64,000 bases of DNA, from assembly GCA_937766455.1 (NCBI GenBank), contig CALLXD010000016.1, positions 62,001-126,000 of the forward strand. The letters are read 5' to 3'. Under the pieces are notes generated by a model. It made no database searches. It worked only from the letters and a program-made list of their open reading frames with translations, and was not told where the DNA came from. This document shows positions 8,499 through 18,126 of the stretch, one piece after another (within the stretch, counting starts at the first letter, position 1; each line of letters opens with the position of its first letter). This stretch comes from Vicinamibacterales bacterium (GTDB taxonomy: Bacteria > Acidobacteriota > Vicinamibacteria > Vicinamibacterales > UBA8438). The translations under genes and the position numbers were made by a program.

Positions 8499-8526
8499 TT
8501 GACTTGCAGCGAGCGCCTCCTATACG
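8499..8526 (+). promoter_or_regulatory. Candidate sigma-70 promoter for the nqr operon
   Basis: TTGACT (-35) and TATACG (-10) are separated by 16 bases in the 281-base gap between the divergent thiS and nqrA. It faces nqrA and would give a leader of roughly 115 bases that contains the T-run hairpin and the Rex palindrome. Prediction by eye only. Confidence 0.5.
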
Positions 8527-8562
8527 ATGCCTGTTACACTGGTCGCTTGGTACGAGTGTGAG

Positions 8563-8589
8563 CCGCTAGCGCAGGCGGTGATTTTTTTT
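8563..8589 (+). terminator. Possible attenuator: short GC hairpin followed by eight T
   Basis: CCGC and GCGG arms with an eight-base loop are followed by GA and an uninterrupted run of eight T. The shape is that of a weak intrinsic terminator lying between the candidate promoter and nqrA, so it could attenuate the nqr transcript. The stem is only four clean pairs, so confidence is low. Confidence 0.25.
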
Positions 8590-8593
8590 GACT

Positions 8594-8619
8594 TAGCTTG
8601 AGAAATTTTTCACAAGCTA
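8594..8619. promoter_or_regulatory. Rex-type redox operator upstream of nqrA
   Basis: A 26-base palindrome with one mismatched pair. Its core TTGAGAAATTTTTCACAA (8598-8615) matches the published Rex operator TTGTGAA-N4-TTCACAA at all but one base. Rex is a repressor that senses the NADH/NAD+ ratio and often controls respiratory NADH dehydrogenases. The site lies 31 bases before the nqrA start, in a leader where a bound repressor could block transcription. No rex gene is present in this window. Confidence 0.65.
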
Positions 8620-8649: not shown

Positions 8650-10020
8650 ATGGGTCTCCACACCATTCGCAAGGGGCTGCGGCTCCCCATCGTGGGTGAA
8701 CCCGAGCAGTCCATTGAGACGGCCCGGACGCCGCGCCGGGTGGCGTTGCTGGGGGACGACTACGTTGGGTTGCGACCGACGATGCACGTCGCCGTCGGTG
8801 ACGATGTTCGCCGGGGCCAACTGCTTTTTGAGGACAAGAAGCGGCCTGGCGTCCGGTTCACTGCACCGGGGTCTGGACGTGTGTCCGCCGTGAACCGCGG
8901 CGACCGGCGCGCGTTCCGCTCGTTGGTCATCGACCTCAGCCGAGACGAGCGAGAAGGGCGCGGCGAGGCTGTCAGGTTCAGCGCGTTCAGCGGGCGGCAC
9001 CCGGGTGAACTCAGCCGCACCGACGTGCGCGCCCTGCTGGTGGAGTCCGGGCTATGGGTGGCGCTTCGGTCGCGCCCGTTCAGCCGCGTCGCCGATCCGG
9101 AGATGCAGCCGCACGCCATCTTCGTGACCGCCATCGACACCGAGCCGCTCACCCCGGATGTAGACGTCGTGCTGGAGGGTGCGCACGGTGCATTCGAGCG
9201 TGGCGTGGCCGCGCTGGGACGGCTGACTGACGGTACCGTCTACGTGTGCACGGCACCGGGAAGCGCCGTGCCCGTGCGCGAAAACGAGCAAATCCGGCGG
9301 GAGGAGTTTGCTGGCCCACACCCGGCTGGTACGGCCGGCGTGCACATCCATCGGCTGGATGCCGTCGACCGCGGGAAGCTGGTGTGGCACGTTGGCTACC
9401 AGGACGTGGTCGCGATGGGACGGTTGTTCGAGTCCGGCGAATTGTCGGTTGACCGGGTGGTGGCGCTGACGGGTCCTGCGCAGCCCCGCCCGCGGCTTGT
9501 TCGCACGCGACTAGGCGCCGCGACGGATGACCTGCTGGTGGACGACGCGGTCGCAGGGGAGACCCGGGTCGTGTCCGGTTCTGTCTTGACAGGGCGAGCG
9601 GCCTCGGGCGACGTGGATGGCTTTCTGGGCCGATATCACCGCCAGGTGTGCGTGATTATTGAAGGACGCGCGCGTGAGTTCTTTGGCTGGGTGTCTCCCG
9701 GTGCGACGAAGTTCTCTGCGTCGCGGGCCTTTCTGTCTGCGCTCAGACCAGGCCACCGGTTCGGATTCTCGACCACAACCCATGGTTCGGTGCGCGCGAT
9801 CGTGCCTATCGGGCTGTATGAAAAAGTGCTGCCCATGGACCTGTTGCCGACGCCGCTTTTGCGGGCGCTGGTCATGCAGGATGTCGAGCGTGCCGAAGAG
9901 CTGGGGTGTTTGGAGCTGGACGAAGAGGATCTGGCGCTCTGCACATTCGTGTGCCCCAGCAAGATCGACTACGGCCGGTCGTTGCGTGGTGTGTTGAATA
10001 CCCTCGAGGCTGAGGGCTGA
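8650..10020 (+). CDS. nqrA: Na+-translocating NADH:quinone reductase subunit A
   Basis: A 456-residue soluble subunit without transmembrane helices. The start IRKGLRLPIVGEPEQ is the standard NqrA opening, followed by the barrel-sandwich segment around GDDVRRGQLLFEDKK. NqrA contributes to quinone binding on the cytoplasmic side of the NQR complex, which couples NADH oxidation to sodium export. It is the first of six contiguous nqr genes. The Shine-Dalgarno is poor; AGGAG occurs only about 28 bases upstream, next to the Rex-like palindrome. Confidence 0.96.
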   Translation: MGLHTIRKGLRLPIVGEPEQSIETARTPRRVALLGDDYVGLRPTMHVAVGDDVRRGQLLFEDKKRPGVRFTAPGSGRVSAVNRGDRRAFRSLVIDLSRDEREGRGEAVRFSAFSGRHPGELSRTDVRALLVESGLWVALRSRPFSRVADPEMQPHAIFVTAIDTEPLTPDVDVVLEGAHGAFERGVAALGRLTDGTVYVCTAPGSAVPVRENEQIRREEFAGPHPAGTAGVHIHRLDAVDRGKLVWHVGYQDVVAMGRLFESGELSVDRVVALTGPAQPRPRLVRTRLGAATDDLLVDDAVAGETRVVSGSVLTGRAASGDVDGFLGRYHRQVCVIIEGRAREFFGWVSPGATKFSASRAFLSALRPGHRFGFSTTTHGSVRAIVPIGLYEKVLPMDLLPTPLLRALVMQDVERAEELGCLELDEEDLALCTFVCPSKIDYGRSLRGVLNTLEAEG

Positions 10021-10021
10021 G

Positions 10022-11242
10022 ATGAAATTACTGCGAACGCTGCTCGACAAACAGGCCCACCACTTCGAGAAAGGTGGGCGGCTGGCGCGGCTCTACCCGC
10101 TCTGGGAGGCCCAGGACACCATTCTGTACACACCCGGCGAGGTGACCCGGTCGGCGCCGCACGTGCGCGATGCGCTCGACATGAAACGGTTGATGATGAT
10201 CGTGGTCGTCGCCCTGGCCGGTTGCCTCTATATGGCGCTGTACAACACCGGCTACCAGGCGCACCTGGCCATCGCTGCCGGCGCCGCCCCGCTCGACGTG
10301 TGGCAGACGGACGCCATGCGGTCGATGGGGTTGCCGTTCGCGCCTGACGACCTGTGGGCCTGTCTGGTGCACGGGGCGCTCTACTTTCTGCCGGTCCTCG
10401 TGGTGACGTTCGCGGTCGGTGGGTTCTGGGAAGGCCTATTCGCCAGTGTGCGCGGACATGAGATCAACGAGGGGTTTCTCGTGACCGGCATGCTGGTGCC
10501 GCTCACGCTCCCCGCCACCATTCCGCTGTGGCAGGTCGCACTGGGCGTGACATTCGGCGTCGTGATCGGTAAGGAGATCTTCGGCGGCACCGGTATGAAC
10601 GTGCTGAACCCGGCACTGACCGCCCGCGCGTTCCTGTTCTTCGCGTATCCGGCCCAGATGTCAGGCGATGCCATCTGGATCGCGGCCGGCACCTCGCCAG
10701 ACGGGGTCAGTGGCGCGACTATCTTGGCCGTGGCCACGGAGACCGGGCTGGCGGGGGTGACCGACACGCTTGACCCGTGGCAGGCGTTTATCGGACTGAT
10801 GCCGGGATCGATGGGCGAGACCTCGGTGTTGGCGTGTCTGGTCGGCGCCGTCGTGCTGATCGCGACCGGCATCGGGTCGTGGCGCATCATGGCCAGCGTG
10901 CTCGTGGGCACGCTGGGAACGGCGCTGCTGCTCAATACGATCGGCTCGGCGACCAACCCCTACTTCGAGGTCACGCCAGTCTGGCACTTCCTCCTGGGTG
11001 GCTGGGCATTCGGCACCGTCTACATGGCAACCGACCCGGTGTCGGGACCGTCGACACCGACCGGGCACTATTTCTATGGGTTTCTCATCGGATTCATGGT
11101 GGTGCTCATACGCGTCGTGAACCCGGCCTATCCCGAAGGGATGATGCTGGCCATTCTGTTCATGAACCTGTTCGCCCCGCTGATCGACTACGTGGTCGTA
11201 CAGGCCAACGTGCGCCGAAGGAGGGTCCGCTATGCAGGGTAG
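10022..11242 (+). CDS. nqrB: Na+-translocating NADH:quinone reductase subunit B
   Basis: A 406-residue membrane subunit with about ten transmembrane segments. It carries covalent FMN: the acceptor threonine is Thr233 in the SGAT motif, the target of ApbE encoded downstream. The conserved FGGTGMNVLNPALTARAF block is present. NqrB forms the sodium channel region and binds quinone and riboflavin. It starts one base after the nqrA stop and overlaps nqrC by 11 bases. Confidence 0.97.
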   Translation: MKLLRTLLDKQAHHFEKGGRLARLYPLWEAQDTILYTPGEVTRSAPHVRDALDMKRLMMIVVVALAGCLYMALYNTGYQAHLAIAAGAAPLDVWQTDAMRSMGLPFAPDDLWACLVHGALYFLPVLVVTFAVGGFWEGLFASVRGHEINEGFLVTGMLVPLTLPATIPLWQVALGVTFGVVIGKEIFGGTGMNVLNPALTARAFLFFAYPAQMSGDAIWIAAGTSPDGVSGATILAVATETGLAGVTDTLDPWQAFIGLMPGSMGETSVLACLVGAVVLIATGIGSWRIMASVLVGTLGTALLLNTIGSATNPYFEVTPVWHFLLGGWAFGTVYMATDPVSGPSTPTGHYFYGFLIGFMVVLIRVVNPAYPEGMMLAILFMNLFAPLIDYVVVQANVRRRRVRYAG

Positions 11243-12014
11243 CGTCGGTTACAACCTGGGCTTCGCGGCGGCCGTCTGTTTCGTGTGCGCCATCGTGGTG
11301 TCGACGTCGGCGGTCTCGTTGGCGGACCGACAGGACCGGAACGCGGCGCTGGACAAGCAGAACAACGTCCTGGTCGCGGCCGGACTCGCGACCGATGACG
11401 AGGCGCTCGGGGCCGTCGAGGTCGCGCGTCGATTCGAGCCGATCACACAAGTCATCGTTGAGACGACCACGGGCGACGTCAGTGACGGCGTGGAGCTCAC
11501 CGCGTTCGACCAACGTGCAGCGTCCATTGATGTGGCGCGCAGCCGGCCGGCTCCGGATAACTCGGCCCGAATCATGCGCATCCCGCACCAGGCTCTGGTC
11601 TACGAGATTCGAGATGAGGCTGGCGCGCTCGAGATGGCGGTCCTGCCCATTGAAGGACTCGGGCTCTGGGGGACCCTCTACGGGTTCGTGGCGCTCGAGG
11701 GCGACCTGCGCACCATCCGTGGCCTGACCTTCTACGAGCACAAAGAGACACCGGGTCTGGGCGGGGAAGTCGATAACCCCCGCTGGAAGGGGCTCTGGAT
11801 CGGCCGGTTGGCGTTCGATGACGACCTGACCCCGGTGATCGCCGTGGTCAAGGGCACCGCTGGCCCGGTGAGTGACGCACCGTACGAGGTCGACGGGCTA
11901 TCAGGCGCAACCATCACAAGCCGAGGCGTCACGAACCTGTTGCAGTTTTGGCTCGGTCCGGACGGGTTCGGTCCGTACTTGACGCGGTTGCGGGACGAAG
12001 GAGGAGCGCTCTGA
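11232..12014 (+). CDS. nqrC: Na+-translocating NADH:quinone reductase subunit C
   Basis: A 260-residue subunit with one N-terminal transmembrane helix and a periplasmic FMN-binding domain. The flavinylated residue is Thr227 in [17 protein letters not shown] sits upstream of the ATG and supports this start, which overlaps nqrB. The flavin relays electrons between the iron centre in NqrD/E and FMN in NqrB. Its stop shares one base with the nqrD start (TGATG). Confidence 0.96.
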
Positions 12015-12634
12015 TGTCGAAATCACGCGAGGCGCTGATCGATCCGCTGTTCAACAACAACCCGATTGCGCTGCAGGTGCTGGGCATCTGTTCAGCCTTG
12101 GCCGTGACGACGAAGATGGACACCGCGCTGGTGATGAGCGCGGCGGTGATCTTTGTGCTGCTGTTCTCGAACCTGTTCATCAGCGTGTTGCGGAATCAGA
12201 TTCCGACGAGCATCCGCATCATCGTGCAACTGGTTATCATCGCGTCATTGGTCATCGTGGTCGACGAAGTGTTGAAGGCGTACCTGTTCGACATTTCGAA
12301 GCAACTCTCGGTGTTCGTCGGACTCATCATTACCAACTGCATCATCATGGGGCGAGCCGAAGCGTATGCCATGCAGAACCCGCCTGGCATGAGCGTGATC
12401 GACGGCCTCGGCAATGGGCTTGGCTACGGCGTCATTCTGGCCGGCACGGCGGTGCTCCGCGAACTGTTCGGTTCCGGATCCCTCTTCAGCGTGCAGCTGC
12501 TGCCACTTGTGAGCGAAGGCGGTTGGTATACCCCCAACGGGCTCATGGTGCTGTCACCGGGAGCCTTCTTCATCATCGGATTCTTCATCTGGGGCATCCG
12601 GACGTGGAAGCCCGAGCAGGTAGAGCAGGATTAG
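12014..12634 (+). CDS. nqrD: Na+-translocating NADH:quinone reductase subunit D
   Basis: A 206-residue, six-helix membrane protein. Conserved cysteines in [10 protein letters not shown] (helix 1) and [12 protein letters not shown] (helix 4) match the residues that, with NqrE, hold an intramembrane iron centre. The start is the ATG in TGATG after GAAGGAGGAG; the longer ORF in the track is an artefact of open frame. NqrD and NqrE are homologous inverted subunits. Confidence 0.96.
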
Positions 12635-12643
12635 GGGTCTCAT

Positions 12644-13258
12644 ATGGAGCACTACCTGAACCTGGCCGTCAAGGCGATTTTCGTCGAGAACATCGCGCTC
12701 GCGTTCTTCTTGGGCATGTGCTCGTTTTTGGCGGTGTCGAAGCGGGTCTCGACCGCGCTCGGTCTGGGACTCGCGGTCATCTTCGTGCTGACCGTGACCG
12801 TCCCGATGAACAACCTGGTCTACGTCTATGCGCTGAAGCCGGGTGCCTTGGCCTGGGTGTCACCGGCGCTCGCCTCGAAAGATCTGTCCTTTCTCGGTTT
12901 CCTGACCTTCATCGGCACCATCGCGGCGCTCACTCAGATTGTCGAGATGACGCTCGACAGGTTTGCTCCCGCGTTGTACGCGGCTCTTGGGATTTTCCTG
13001 CCGCTGATTGCGGTCAACTGCGCCATTCTCGGGGCGTCGCTCTGGATGATGGAGCGCAACTACAACCTGGCGGAAAGCGCGGTCTTTGGGTTTGGTTCGG
13101 GTGTGGGATGGGCGCTGGCCATCGTGGCGCTGGCCGGTATTCGCGAGCGGCTTCGATATAGCAATCCACCTGAAGGACTGCGTGGGCTCGGACTGACGTT
13201 CATCATCGTGGGCCTGATGGCCATTGGCTTCATGGCGTTCGCGGGGGTGCAACTGTGA
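12644..13258 (+). CDS. nqrE: Na+-translocating NADH:quinone reductase subunit E
   Basis: A 204-residue, six-helix subunit homologous to NqrD. The paired cysteines appear in [12 protein letters not shown] and [10 protein letters not shown], completing the four-cysteine iron site at the NqrD/NqrE interface. It is preceded by AGGGG eight bases before the ATG and overlaps nqrF by four bases (GTGA). Confidence 0.96.
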
Positions 13259-14481
13259 CGACGGTCGTCCTCGGAGTCGGCATGTTCACGTTCACCATCG
13301 TCACCCTGGTCGGGCTGTTGATGATGGCGCGGCGCCAACTGGTGGCCACCGGAGACGTCACCATCACGGTGAACGGCGACCCTGAGAAGGCCCTGTGCAC
13401 CAGCGCCGGAAGCACGCTGCTCGGAACACTGGCTGCGAATCGCATTTTCATACCTTCGGCCTGCGGCGGCAAGGGGAGCTGCGGAGTCTGCACGCTCAAG
13501 GTGAAAGACGGCGGCGGCGCGATCTTGCCCACGGAGTTGAGTCACATCTCCCGCGGCGACGCACGCGACGGTGTCCGGTTGTCCTGCCAGGTGAAGGTGA
13601 AGCAGGACATGTCGATCGAGTTGCCGCCTGAGGTGTTCAGCGTCAAGCAGTGGCGCTGTAAGGTGCGGTCGAACGATAACGTCGCGACCTTCATCAAGGA
13701 GCTGGTGTTGGAGTTGCCGGAGGGCGAGTCCGTGCCGTTCCGGGCGGGTGGGTATATCCAGATCGAGGCGCCCGTGAGCACCGTCAAGTACGCGGACTTC
13801 GCTGTCGACGACGAGTATCGGGCGGACTGGGACAAGTTCAACTTGTGGCGATACGTCTCCACCCTGGACGAGCCCGTGACTCGGGCGTATTCGATGGCCA
13901 ACTTCCCGGAGGAGCGCGGCATCATCATGCTGAACGTCCGGGTGGCCTCGCCGCCGCCGCGCGCGCCGGAAGGTACCCCGCCCGGGAAGATGAGTTCGTA
14001 TATGTTCAGCCTCAAGCCGGGAGACGAGGTGACCATCTCAGGACCGTTCGGGGAGTTCTTCGCGAAGGAGACCCAGGCTGAGATGATGTTCATCGGCGGC
14101 GGCGCAGGTATGGCGCCGATGCGGTCCCATATTTTCGACCAATTTCGGCGCTTGAGTACGTCCCGGAAAGTCTCCTACTGGTATGGCGCCCGCAGTCTGC
14201 GCGAGGCCTTCTACGTGGATGACTTCGACGGCATCGCGACGGACTGCGACAACTTCTCCTGGCATCTCGCCTTGTCGGAGCCACAGCCGGAGGACGACTG
14301 GAGCGGCTACACCGGATTCATTCATCAGGTGGCGCTGGACAACTATCTCAAGGATCACCCGGCGCCCGAAGACATCGAGTATTACTTGTGCGGGCCGCCC
14401 ATGATGCTCAAAGCCTGCATGGGCATGCTTGATTCGCTCGGGGTCGAGCCGGAGAACATCCTCTTCGACGACTTCGGGTAG
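13255..14481 (+). CDS. nqrF: Na+-translocating NADH:quinone reductase subunit F
   Basis: A 408-residue electron-entry subunit. It has one N-terminal membrane helix; a ferredoxin domain with [10 protein letters not shown] and a fourth Cys in RLSCQVKV for the [2Fe-2S] cluster; an FAD domain with the RAYSMANFP motif; and an NADH domain with [12 protein letters not shown] and a C-terminal CGPPMM motif. Electrons pass NADH to FAD to [2Fe-2S]. The GTG start overlaps the nqrE stop, and the length is normal for the family. Confidence 0.97.
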
Positions 14482-14504: not shown

Positions 14505-15581
14505 ATGACTGCCGATCGCGCGGTCCCGGCGTTTCCCCTGCTGGCCACGCTGTGCCTGGCCAGTGTGGTGGCCTGTGGTCAGGCGACCCGACCGTCAGAC
14601 CGTCCGGCAGCCCTGCTCATCGAATTGTTTGATGGGGCCACGATGGGTACCACCTACACCGTCCGGGTCGTGTCCGCGGAAGCGTGGAGCGAGGCGCGAC
14701 GCGACCGGATCGGCACTCGCATCCAGATGGCCCTCGACGACGTGGAATCGGCCATGTCGCACTATCGACCCGATTCGGAAGTCTCCCGCTTCAACGAGAC
14801 CCGGTCGACCGAGCCGTTTACGCTGTCCCCGGCCACGTTCGAAGTCGTGCGCGTCGCGATCGAGCTGAGCGAGATCAGCGACGGGGCGCTGGACATCACG
14901 GTCGGCCCCTTGGTCAACGCGTGGGGCTTTGGCCCAACGGAGCCAGAGACGCTCCCGCCCGATGCGGACCTGTTGTCCCGACTACGGGCTCGCGTCGGAT
15001 TCAGCAAGCTCGAATTGGATGCAGCGGCGTCCACCGTGCGGAAGACGGACCCCGCGCTGGAGTGGGATCTGTCCTCGGTGGCCAAGGGTTACGGCGTCGA
15101 TCGCGTTGCGTCCGCGCTCACGGAGGAAGGTGTGACCCGATTCATGGTGGAAGTCGGGGGAGAAATTGTTGCGTCCGGTGCCAATCATCTGCATGGCCCC
15201 TGGCGGATCGGAATAGAACGTCCTGCCGACGGTGGTGGTATCCAGCGGGTGGTGCCGCTGTCCGGTCACGCCCTGGCGACGTCAGGCGATTATAGGAACG
15301 TCCGAGAGGTGGCTGGACGCCTGGTCTCGCACACCATCGATCCGCGCACCGGTCGCCCGATTGACCACCACTTGGCATCGGTGAGCGTCATCGCCGACAC
15401 CTGCCTGTTGGCTGACGGCGTGGCGACCACGCTCGAGGTGCTCGGCCCAGACGAGGGCTACGCCCTGGCGATCGAGCGCGGCTGGGCCGCCCTGTTTCTT
15501 ATGCGCGACGGTGACACCATCACGTCCCGCGTGACCCCAGAGTTCGATCAGCTGGCCCCGGCCGGCGCTACAATGGACTAG
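14505..15581 (+). CDS. apbE: FAD:protein FMN transferase
   Basis: A 358-residue lipoprotein. The N-terminal signal ends in a lipobox-like SVVAC. Family motifs include ATMGTTYTV, the SSVAKGYGVDRV block and HTIDPRTGRPIDHH. ApbE attaches FMN from FAD to threonines in NqrB and NqrC on the periplasmic side, so its position 23 bases after nqrF is functional. A Mg2+-binding region with a conserved Asp/Thr near the C-terminus (IADTCLLADGVATT) is intact. Confidence 0.95.
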   Translation: MTADRAVPAFPLLATLCLASVVACGQATRPSDRPAALLIELFDGATMGTTYTVRVVSAEAWSEARRDRIGTRIQMALDDVESAMSHYRPDSEVSRFNETRSTEPFTLSPATFEVVRVAIELSEISDGALDITVGPLVNAWGFGPTEPETLPPDADLLSRLRARVGFSKLELDAAASTVRKTDPALEWDLSSVAKGYGVDRVASALTEEGVTRFMVEVGGEIVASGANHLHGPWRIGIERPADGGGIQRVVPLSGHALATSGDYRNVREVAGRLVSHTIDPRTGRPIDHHLASVSVIADTCLLADGVATTLEVLGPDEGYALAIERGWAALFLMRDGDTITSRVTPEFDQLAPAGATMD

Positions 15582-17022: not shown

Positions 17023-18126
17023 ATGGCAAAAATCGGACGGCCCCGAGCCGAAGTGGTGCTCACCGCAGGTGAACGGGCGGACCTGATCCGCCTGACCAAG
17101 CGCGCGCGGGTGAATCGCGCGATCGCGTTGCGCGCGCGCATCGTGTTGGCCTGCGTCGGCGCCTCGGACACGGAGGTGGCCCGCCGCCTTCGCACGACGA
17201 AGACGACCGTGGCGAAATGGCGCGGGCAGTTCGTCGCCCGTCGCCTGGACGGACTGTACGACGAGCCGCGTGTGGGAGCGCCACGCACCATCGCTGACGA
17301 GACCGTCGAGGCGGTCATCGTCAAGACCCTGGAGACGACGCCGTCGGGCGAAACGCACTGGAGTACCCGGTCGATGGCCAGGGCCACGGGCCTGAGCCAC
17401 AGCACGATCGGGCGCATTTGGCGGACGTTTCGCCTGCAGCCCCATCGGGTCGAGTCGTTCAAGCTCTCGCCCGATCCGCAACTCGTCGACAAGATCCGCG
17501 ATGTCGTCGGCTTGTATACGAATCCGCCGACGAATGCCGTGGTGTTCGCCGTCGATGAGAAGTCGCAGATTCAAGCGCTCGAACGCGCGCAGCCCGTGCT
17601 GCCCATGGATATCGGTCAGCCCGAGCGGCGGACGCACAACTACATCCGCCACGGGACGCTCGATCTCTTCGCGGCGCTCAACGTCGCCACGGGCGAGGTC
17701 CTGGCGCGGTGTAAGGCCCAGCATCACGCGCAGGACTTTGTCGCCTTTCTGCGCGAAATTGAGGCGACCGTCGAGCCGACGTTGGACATCCATGTCGTGC
17801 TGGACAATCTGTCGGCGCACAAAGCGCCGCCCGTGCGGCGTTGGCTGGTTCGCCATCCGCGGGTCCAGTTTCATTTCACGCCGACCTACGCCTCGTGGCT
17901 CAACCTCGTGGAGCGCTTCTTCGGCTTGCTCACCGAAAAAGCCTTGAAACGCGGTTCGCACACGAACCTTGCGCAACTCCGAGCGGCCATCCTCGCGTAC
18001 GTCGAGGCCCACAACGATCGCGGCACGCCCTTCAAGTGGATTAAGACCGCGGACGAGATCCTCGACAACATGCGACGTTTCGGCCTTCGCGTGCAGCAGG
18101 TCCATGGTCAAGGGCATTTATCCTAG
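17023..18126 (+). CDS. IS630-family transposase
   Basis: A 367-residue transposase in one open frame. The N-terminal helix-turn-helix (residues about 15-75, with SDTEVARRLRTTKTTVAKW) and a second winged-helix segment precede the DDE nuclease. Catalytic residues are visible in FAVDEKSQ, VVLDNLSAH and LNLVERFFG. CAGGAG lies just before the ATG. The stop codon falls inside the right terminal repeat. Being intact, with clean ends and target duplication, it looks recently inserted and potentially active. Confidence 0.93.
   Translation: MAKIGRPRAEVVLTAGERADLIRLTKRARVNRAIALRARIVLACVGASDTEVARRLRTTKTTVAKWRGQFVARRLDGLYDEPRVGAPRTIADETVEAVIVKTLETTPSGETHWSTRSMARATGLSHSTIGRIWRTFRLQPHRVESFKLSPDPQLVDKIRDVVGLYTNPPTNAVVFAVDEKSQIQALERAQPVLPMDIGQPERRTHNYIRHGTLDLFAALNVATGEVLARCKAQHHAQDFVAFLREIEATVEPTLDIHVVLDNLSAHKAPPVRRWLVRHPRVQFHFTPTYASWLNLVERFFGLLTEKALKRGSHTNLAQLRAAILAYVEAHNDRGTPFKWIKTADEILDNMRRFGLRVQQVHGQGHLS

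Follow-up and report, generated by a model that had tools for sequence, protein, structure and literature searches.

The window, the 64-kb stretch of DNA that was analysed as a whole, carries what appears to be a complete nqrABCDEF-apbE-nqrM operon, preceded by a leader with a promoter, an intrinsic terminator and a candidate operator of the redox repressor Rex (Table 1). The last ORF is probably nqrM, a name given from the features of the family. Downstream of the operon, an IS630-type transposase-like ORF was recognised by eye at 17023–18126.

Table 1. Coordinates of the nqr operon and its leader elements in the window.
Feature	Position	Strand	Basis
nqr operon promoter	8499–8528	+	−35 TTGACT 8499–8504, −10 TACGAT 8523–8528, 18-nt spacer; consensus scan
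Terminator hairpin GCCGC-TAGCGCAG-GCGGT	8562–8579	+	Terminator scan; whole stem-loop GCCGCTAGCGCAGGCGGT
Terminator T8 run	8582–8589	+	Sequence reading and terminator scan
Linker GACTTAGC, 8 nt, T-run to operator core	8590–8597	+	Sequence reading
Candidate Rex operator	8594–8619	+	Core TTGAGAAATTTTTCACAA 8598–8615; conservation, controls, T. maritima crystal operator
nqrA	8650–10020	+	NCBIfam NF003759, 612.8 bits vs cut-off 505
nqrB	10022–11242	+	NCBIfam equivalog model, over cut-off
nqrC	11232–12014	+	NCBIfam equivalog model, over cut-off
nqrD	12014–12634	+	NCBIfam equivalog model, over cut-off
nqrE	12644–13258	+	NCBIfam equivalog model, over cut-off
nqrF	13255–14481	+	NCBIfam equivalog model, over cut-off
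apbE, FAD:protein FMN transferase	14505–15581	+	NCBIfam NF007774, E 3.6e-83, under the model's cut-off
Probable nqrM, 61 aa	15584–15769	+	ORF directly behind apbE; CLRGSCGG..CAACP cysteine pattern

The candidate operator is the palindrome TAGCTTGAGAAATTTTTCACAAGCTA, which lies 35 nt ahead of the nqrA ATG. The initial annotation had placed a palindrome in the nqrA leader, with a core one base away from the Rex consensus TTGTGAA-N4-TTCACAA; reading of the positions and comparison with the consensus bear out the palindrome, its location and the single deviation. Of the TTGACT/TATACG promoter proposed at the same time, the −35 element stands, whereas TATACG (8521–8526) is two bases off the conserved −10 hexamer TACGAT. 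All 22 nqr leaders tested have TACGAT, TAGGAT or TGCGAT together with a TGACT-type −35, 52–129 nt upstream of the palindrome, which in each of them lies downstream of the conserved −10, the start sites being predicted from sequence. For the window we infer a transcription start near 8535. Counted from there, the palindrome occupies about +63 to +81 of the nqr transcript, and would therefore not be an operator at the promoter.

Between the promoter and the palindrome, a terminator scan detected an intrinsic terminator that was absent from the initial annotation. A GC-rich hairpin is followed directly by a T-run, and compensatory change is seen among relatives, in which two stem pairs are altered on both sides. 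An Rfam search of this leader, including matches at a loose E-value, returned no known RNA or riboswitch. Two further candidates were rejected by eye. Antitermination by base pairing between palindrome and hairpin loop could draw on CTAGC/GCTAG in the window, but these are missing in relatives; a second promoter formed from TTTTGAC and the palindrome has no fitting −10 at 16–19 nt.

The core occurs as a single exact copy in the 3.45-Mb genome assembly (85% complete), and a search of the whole assembly for TTGWGAA-N4-TTCACAA with up to one mismatch yielded nothing besides the nqr site. Across the order, TTGAGAA-N4-TTCACAA has 72 matches in 62 of 162 genomes. The same pattern read backwards gave 0 matches in these 162 genomes, and 0 in the 28 genomes of the family. 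A symmetric search of the family genomes (TTGWGAA-N4-TTCWCAA) found the asymmetric form alone, with the perfect TTGTGAA-N4-TTCACAA at 0. All exact sites but one (71/72) precede nqr, nadA (quinolinate synthase), nuoA or the Alternative Complex III operon. The gene downstream is nadA in 32 cases, nqrA in 17, nuoA in 17 and actA (Alternative Complex III) in 5, and one site (L258) is without assignment; the nqrA count includes one leader read by eye (L285) and one joined to the end of nqrF (L121). In the latter (G016, C124), the promoter, terminator and operator of nqr are intact and lead straight into the nqrF end, which reflects either the loss of most of the operon or an assembly join. The orientation is identical in 71/71 assigned sites, with TTGAGAA towards the promoter. 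Close variants (TTGAGA-N6-TCACAA) stand ahead of nqrB in four leaders and of nqrA in two more, and relaxed matching at nadA adds TTGCGAA and TTGAGCA variants.

Within the family, most genera have the palindrome in the leader of nqrA or nqrB. The core is kept while the flanks have diverged, the outer TAGC/GCTA arms are retained in part only, and the symmetry is interrupted by the same base throughout, A at position 4. Conservation in front of nqrA in related genomes, on which the initial proposal hinged, is thus observed; the further copies that it envisaged at redox genes exist in relatives, at nadA, nuoA and actA, and in the window's own genome the nqr site stands alone. In genus g2, the promoter, hairpin, a T7 run and the palindrome all lie between nqrA and nqrB instead. 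Other classes of Acidobacteriota have the perfect TTGTGAA-N4-TTCACAA ahead of nqrA (G373, G075), nuoA (G100, G112) or actA (G199), and it also precedes nqrA in one Thermoanaerobaculia and one Planctomycetota MAG. Two other sets of loci were seen on the way. In family f39 (L211, L214, L230), TTACATTGAGAAATTTTTCACAA is followed by a GATAAT-like box, an arrangement conserved outside the order. In a genome without a Rex match (G107; L200, L245, L246), TTGTGAACGCGTTCACAA occurs eight times and probably belongs to another regulator or a repeat.

The targets differ in architecture. At nuoA and actA the operators adjoin the −10 box, nearly all of them without a terminator, and a Rex dimer bound there would act as a conventional block to initiation. 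The operator-bearing nadA often lies behind a CofH/MqnE-type radical-SAM gene (L189–L192, L129–L132; names by eye) that is co-directional with it, so that terminator and operator together separate two co-directional genes. NadA of the order falls into two types, with about 70% or about 45% identity to the query, and in the leaders read the terminator–operator pair occurs with the first type only. The window's genome has a different NadA, with only 43% identity, so nqr may be its principal Rex target of exactly this kind.

A Rex homologue, whose absence would have spoken against the initial proposal, is encoded on another contig (G000:C42:60500–61111; 237 bits with NCBIfam NF003995, cut-off 126), next to a gene that we take from its sequence to be moaC. 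Its best PDB matches are Thermus Rex. In register with the description of Thermotoga maritima Rex, it has R48, K49, S52, G58, R60, G61 and Y64 in the wing and recognition helix, the residues named as DNA contacts of that protein (PMC8836258). Rex is present in 141 of the 162 genomes of the order and in 96/100 good genomes, and because it is so widespread, its co-occurrence with the site is uninformative (54/62 genomes with the site versus 87/100 without). No palindrome was found in the scanned loci around rex that would point to autoregulation.

A crystal structure of T. maritima Rex with NAD+ and DNA contains the bound operator ATTTGAGAAATTTATCACAAAA, with the site TTGAGAAATTTATCACAA (PMC8836258). 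This site shares its TTGAGAA half with the window core, and the two are one base apart. Since the crystallised operator shares the half-site, the base that deviates from the consensus is compatible with Rex, and it can be read as a fixed, documented Rex half-site rather than as noise. The targets serve the oxidation of NADH, the onward transfer of its electrons or the synthesis of NAD, and form a plausible NADH-linked Rex regulon. With the rex gene, the conservation at nqr, the other NADH/NAD targets and the Thermotoga half-site all pointing the same way, the palindrome at 8594–8619 is very probably a Rex operator, as had been proposed. What has to be corrected is its setting, about 60–80 nt beyond the predicted start and in a pair with an intrinsic terminator. 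A symmetric dimer gives no account of the asymmetry and locked orientation, with TTGAGAA always promoter-proximal; the locked half-site could tune the strength of a roadblock from one side or weaken a hairpin in the leader RNA.

For the pairing with the terminator, hairpins with a T-run were scored against shuffles of the same upstream DNA. A terminator precedes the operator in 11/17 nqrA leaders (1.15 expected from shuffles), in 4/4 nqrB leaders (0.49 expected; 1.6 for nqrA and nqrB together) and in 25/32 nadA leaders (1.80 expected), the joint expectation for the three genes being 3.4; the leaders sampled are related, so that these counts are not independent events. The corresponding values are 1/17 for nuoA (0.43 expected) and 0/5 for actA (0.15 expected). 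Six of the seven nadA leaders that fell under the hairpin threshold still have a T-run at 12 nt; five of these have good hairpins with slightly different ends, and the sixth (L284) is rich in N.

The spacing between terminator and operator is nearly constant. From the last T to the operator core there are 12 nt in 31/31 nadA leaders with a T-run in a first sample, and 8–10 nt in all 15 terminator-scored nqr leaders (nqrA, 8 nt in eight leaders, 9 in two and 10 in one; nqrB, 10 nt), with the T-run spanning about −16/−17 to −9/−13 relative to the core. A second nadA sample, which leaves out three loci, has the T-run 11–12 nt upstream in 20 of 21 operator leaders (0–2 mismatches; 11 nt once). None of the six nadA leaders without an operator in this sample contains a run of four T within 420 nt. 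If the leaders were independent, the chance of this association would be about 2e-5 (7/C(27,6)), a figure that serves as an indication and not as a test, four leaders of family f14 being near-identical. In single-sequence folds, the arms of the nadA hairpins still pair although their sequences vary, for example GCCAAGCTTCAC/GTGGAGCTTGGC, GTCAAACTCCATC/GATGGGGTTTGAC and GGCGCCGACTC/GGGTCGGCGCC. An inner stem-loop, GGC-GAYA-GCC, recurs in the terminator hairpins of nadA leaders of families f2, f6, f10, f12 and f13 (e.g. L191, L192, L264, L269) and matched no Rfam family; a search of 20 nadA loci against Rfam gave no match except to nearby cobalamin riboswitches. Terminator and operator thus go together in presence, absence and distance, and we lean slightly towards the view that they work as one device.

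We suggest the following mechanism, in which Rex binding, the response to NADH, stalling, the effect on termination and the direction of control are all predicted from sequence. The operator would place nqrABCDEF-apbE-nqrM under NADH/NAD+ control from downstream of the promoter, where it would complete a composite stop device as its second half. By position 8589, transcription from near 8535 would have yielded the GC hairpin together with its U8 tract, with the operator 8 bp further on. As described in work on EcoRI Q111, a tight roadblock stops the active site of the polymerase roughly 14 bp before it. Such a halt point would lie inside the U-tract, and repressor roadblocks downstream of start sites are established for CodY, CcpA, PurR and GalR (PMC10310618), on which grounds we propose that Rex makes the terminator conditional. 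At low NADH, NAD+-bound Rex on the operator would halt RNA polymerase with its active site within the U-tract, from which the terminator would release it, possibly with help from Mfd, the factor to which roadblock termination is ascribed, possibly alongside Rho (available part of PMC10310618). As NADH rises, Rex would leave, the polymerase would cross the U-tract faster and a larger share would read through; more Na+-NQR would then be made and NADH oxidised. The polymerase would already overlap the operator at the usual release point, and Rex could in principle act slightly before termination rather than at it. nadA would use the same device, and nuoA and Alternative Complex III would have ordinary promoter-proximal Rex operators. 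Taken as a whole, control of the nqr operon by a Rex operator and a conditional terminator is in our judgement the best explanation of the locus, and we hold it with moderate confidence.

Operator and terminator might instead act separately. Rex would then block the elongating polymerase by itself (with Mfd), and the terminator would be an attenuator, either constant or under some other control, or would mark the end of a small leader RNA. Six nqrA leaders, from genera g5 and g9, keep the operator and have no T-run, so the pair is not obligatory; operators without a terminator are also the rule at nuoA and actA, and simple roadblock repression is well known (PMC10310618). However, separate action would leave unexplained why near-constant spacings recur in two unrelated leader types, 8–10 nt at nqr and 12 nt at nadA, and why genera g2 and g7 have rebuilt the same design and spacing with unrelated hairpin sequences. 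The complete lack of T-runs from the six operator-less nadA leaders speaks against it as well, and we regard separate action as rather unlikely, though it is the most serious competitor of the conditional terminator.

A regulator of the CRP/FNR family in place of Rex, for instance of the HcpR type with a TTGTGA-N6-TCACAA site, is improbable. The motifs of CRP/FNR and HcpR-type proteins overlap the Rex consensus. In Shewanella, Crp acts on NADH dehydrogenase genes (PMC12210985, in the part available). The conserved core, however, retains TTG..CAA, and in place of the TGTGA required by CRP it reads TGAGA or TGCGA: the TGTGA in both halves that marks CRP and HcpR sites is not seen, the proximal half being TGAGA in 72/72 exact sites, by choice of the pattern, and TGCGA or another non-T form in relaxed matches. 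The targets are genes of NADH oxidation and NAD synthesis, with hcp not among them, and the exact half-site has been crystallised with Rex (PMC8836258).

Still less probable is a role of the palindrome at the RNA level, where it would form a hairpin and act jointly with the terminator as a leader riboregulator. It would always be transcribed, in one orientation, its would-be stem has a constant A-A mismatch, and it does fold; but its core is nearly invariant without compensatory change, the start codon lies anywhere from −1 to >200 nt away, and neither the window leader nor, apart from nearby cobalamin riboswitches, the 20 nadA loci gave an Rfam match. Being transcribed after the terminator, it would also be unable to steer the terminator as RNA. 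A functionless chance match, of which 0.77 are expected per 64-kb window at up to three mismatches, is already refuted by the comparative data, namely conservation at the same genes across many families and the absence of control matches, and its likelihood is negligible.

Rex sites upstream of NADH dehydrogenases are of a known kind. Ravcheev et al. 2012 is reportedly the main comparative study of Rex. The initial annotation knew of no description for this lineage, and our outcome in the open-access literature was the same: we found no description there of Rex with nqr or of Rex in Acidobacteria, and an earlier report of Rex at nqr in other phyla is possible. In that literature, which leaves most subscription journals outside, we likewise found no account of the use at Na+-NQR, of the locked half-site or, above all, of the fixed pairing with a terminator. 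In a phylum that has been little studied, the operators would bring Na+-NQR under Rex-mediated NADH/NAD+ control, and in relatives also complex I, Alternative Complex III and NAD synthesis. Should operator and terminator indeed be coupled, a repressor would act simply on elongation and render an intrinsic terminator conditional without a switch in the RNA. Because the spacings are near-constant and variants with and without a terminator occur naturally, this is directly testable by transcription assay, and there is reason to seek the same terminator pairing with other repressors. Roadblock strength can depend on orientation, as for Rap1p and dCas9 (PMC10310618), and the locked operator offers a natural case for asking whether this applies to a dimeric roadblock.

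The locus shares with the Rex operators at respiratory genes of Streptomyces, Bacillus (ndh) and Thermotoga the 18-bp TTG-N-GAA-N4-TTC-N-CAA core, a Rex in the genome, and NADH dehydrogenase and NAD genes as targets, and with the crystallised Thermotoga operator the TTGAGA half-site (PMC8836258). Unlike these, the asymmetric half-site is fixed in one orientation order-wide, the site lies far downstream of the start and behind an intrinsic terminator, and Na+-NQR and Alternative Complex III are among the targets. As in roadblock repression by CodY, CcpA, PurR, GalR and LacI (PMC10310618), a repressor site in the transcribed leader would meet the elongating polymerase; here, in contrast, it stands at a near-constant spacing behind an intrinsic terminator, and the stall would fall on the U-tract. 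The NAD+-I riboswitch (nadA motif) of Acidobacteria is a tandem bulged stem-loop RNA that acts on translation (PMC10702441) and has in common with our leaders the control of nadA from the leader in the same phylum; its Rfam model matched neither the nqr leader nor the 20 nadA loci. Tentatively, and with slightly less than even confidence, we propose a new type of attenuation, an NADH-gated terminator that would serve nqr and nadA throughout an order of Acidobacteriota, in which Rex occupancy would set the efficiency of termination and the orientation-locked asymmetric operator would be part of the design. With attenuators and terminator riboswitches it shares a promoter, a short leader, an intrinsic terminator and an operon whose readthrough would be controlled. 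No aptamer, leader peptide or alternative fold was found and, unlike in those systems, sensing is proposed for a DNA-binding protein whose site of action lies beyond the terminator.
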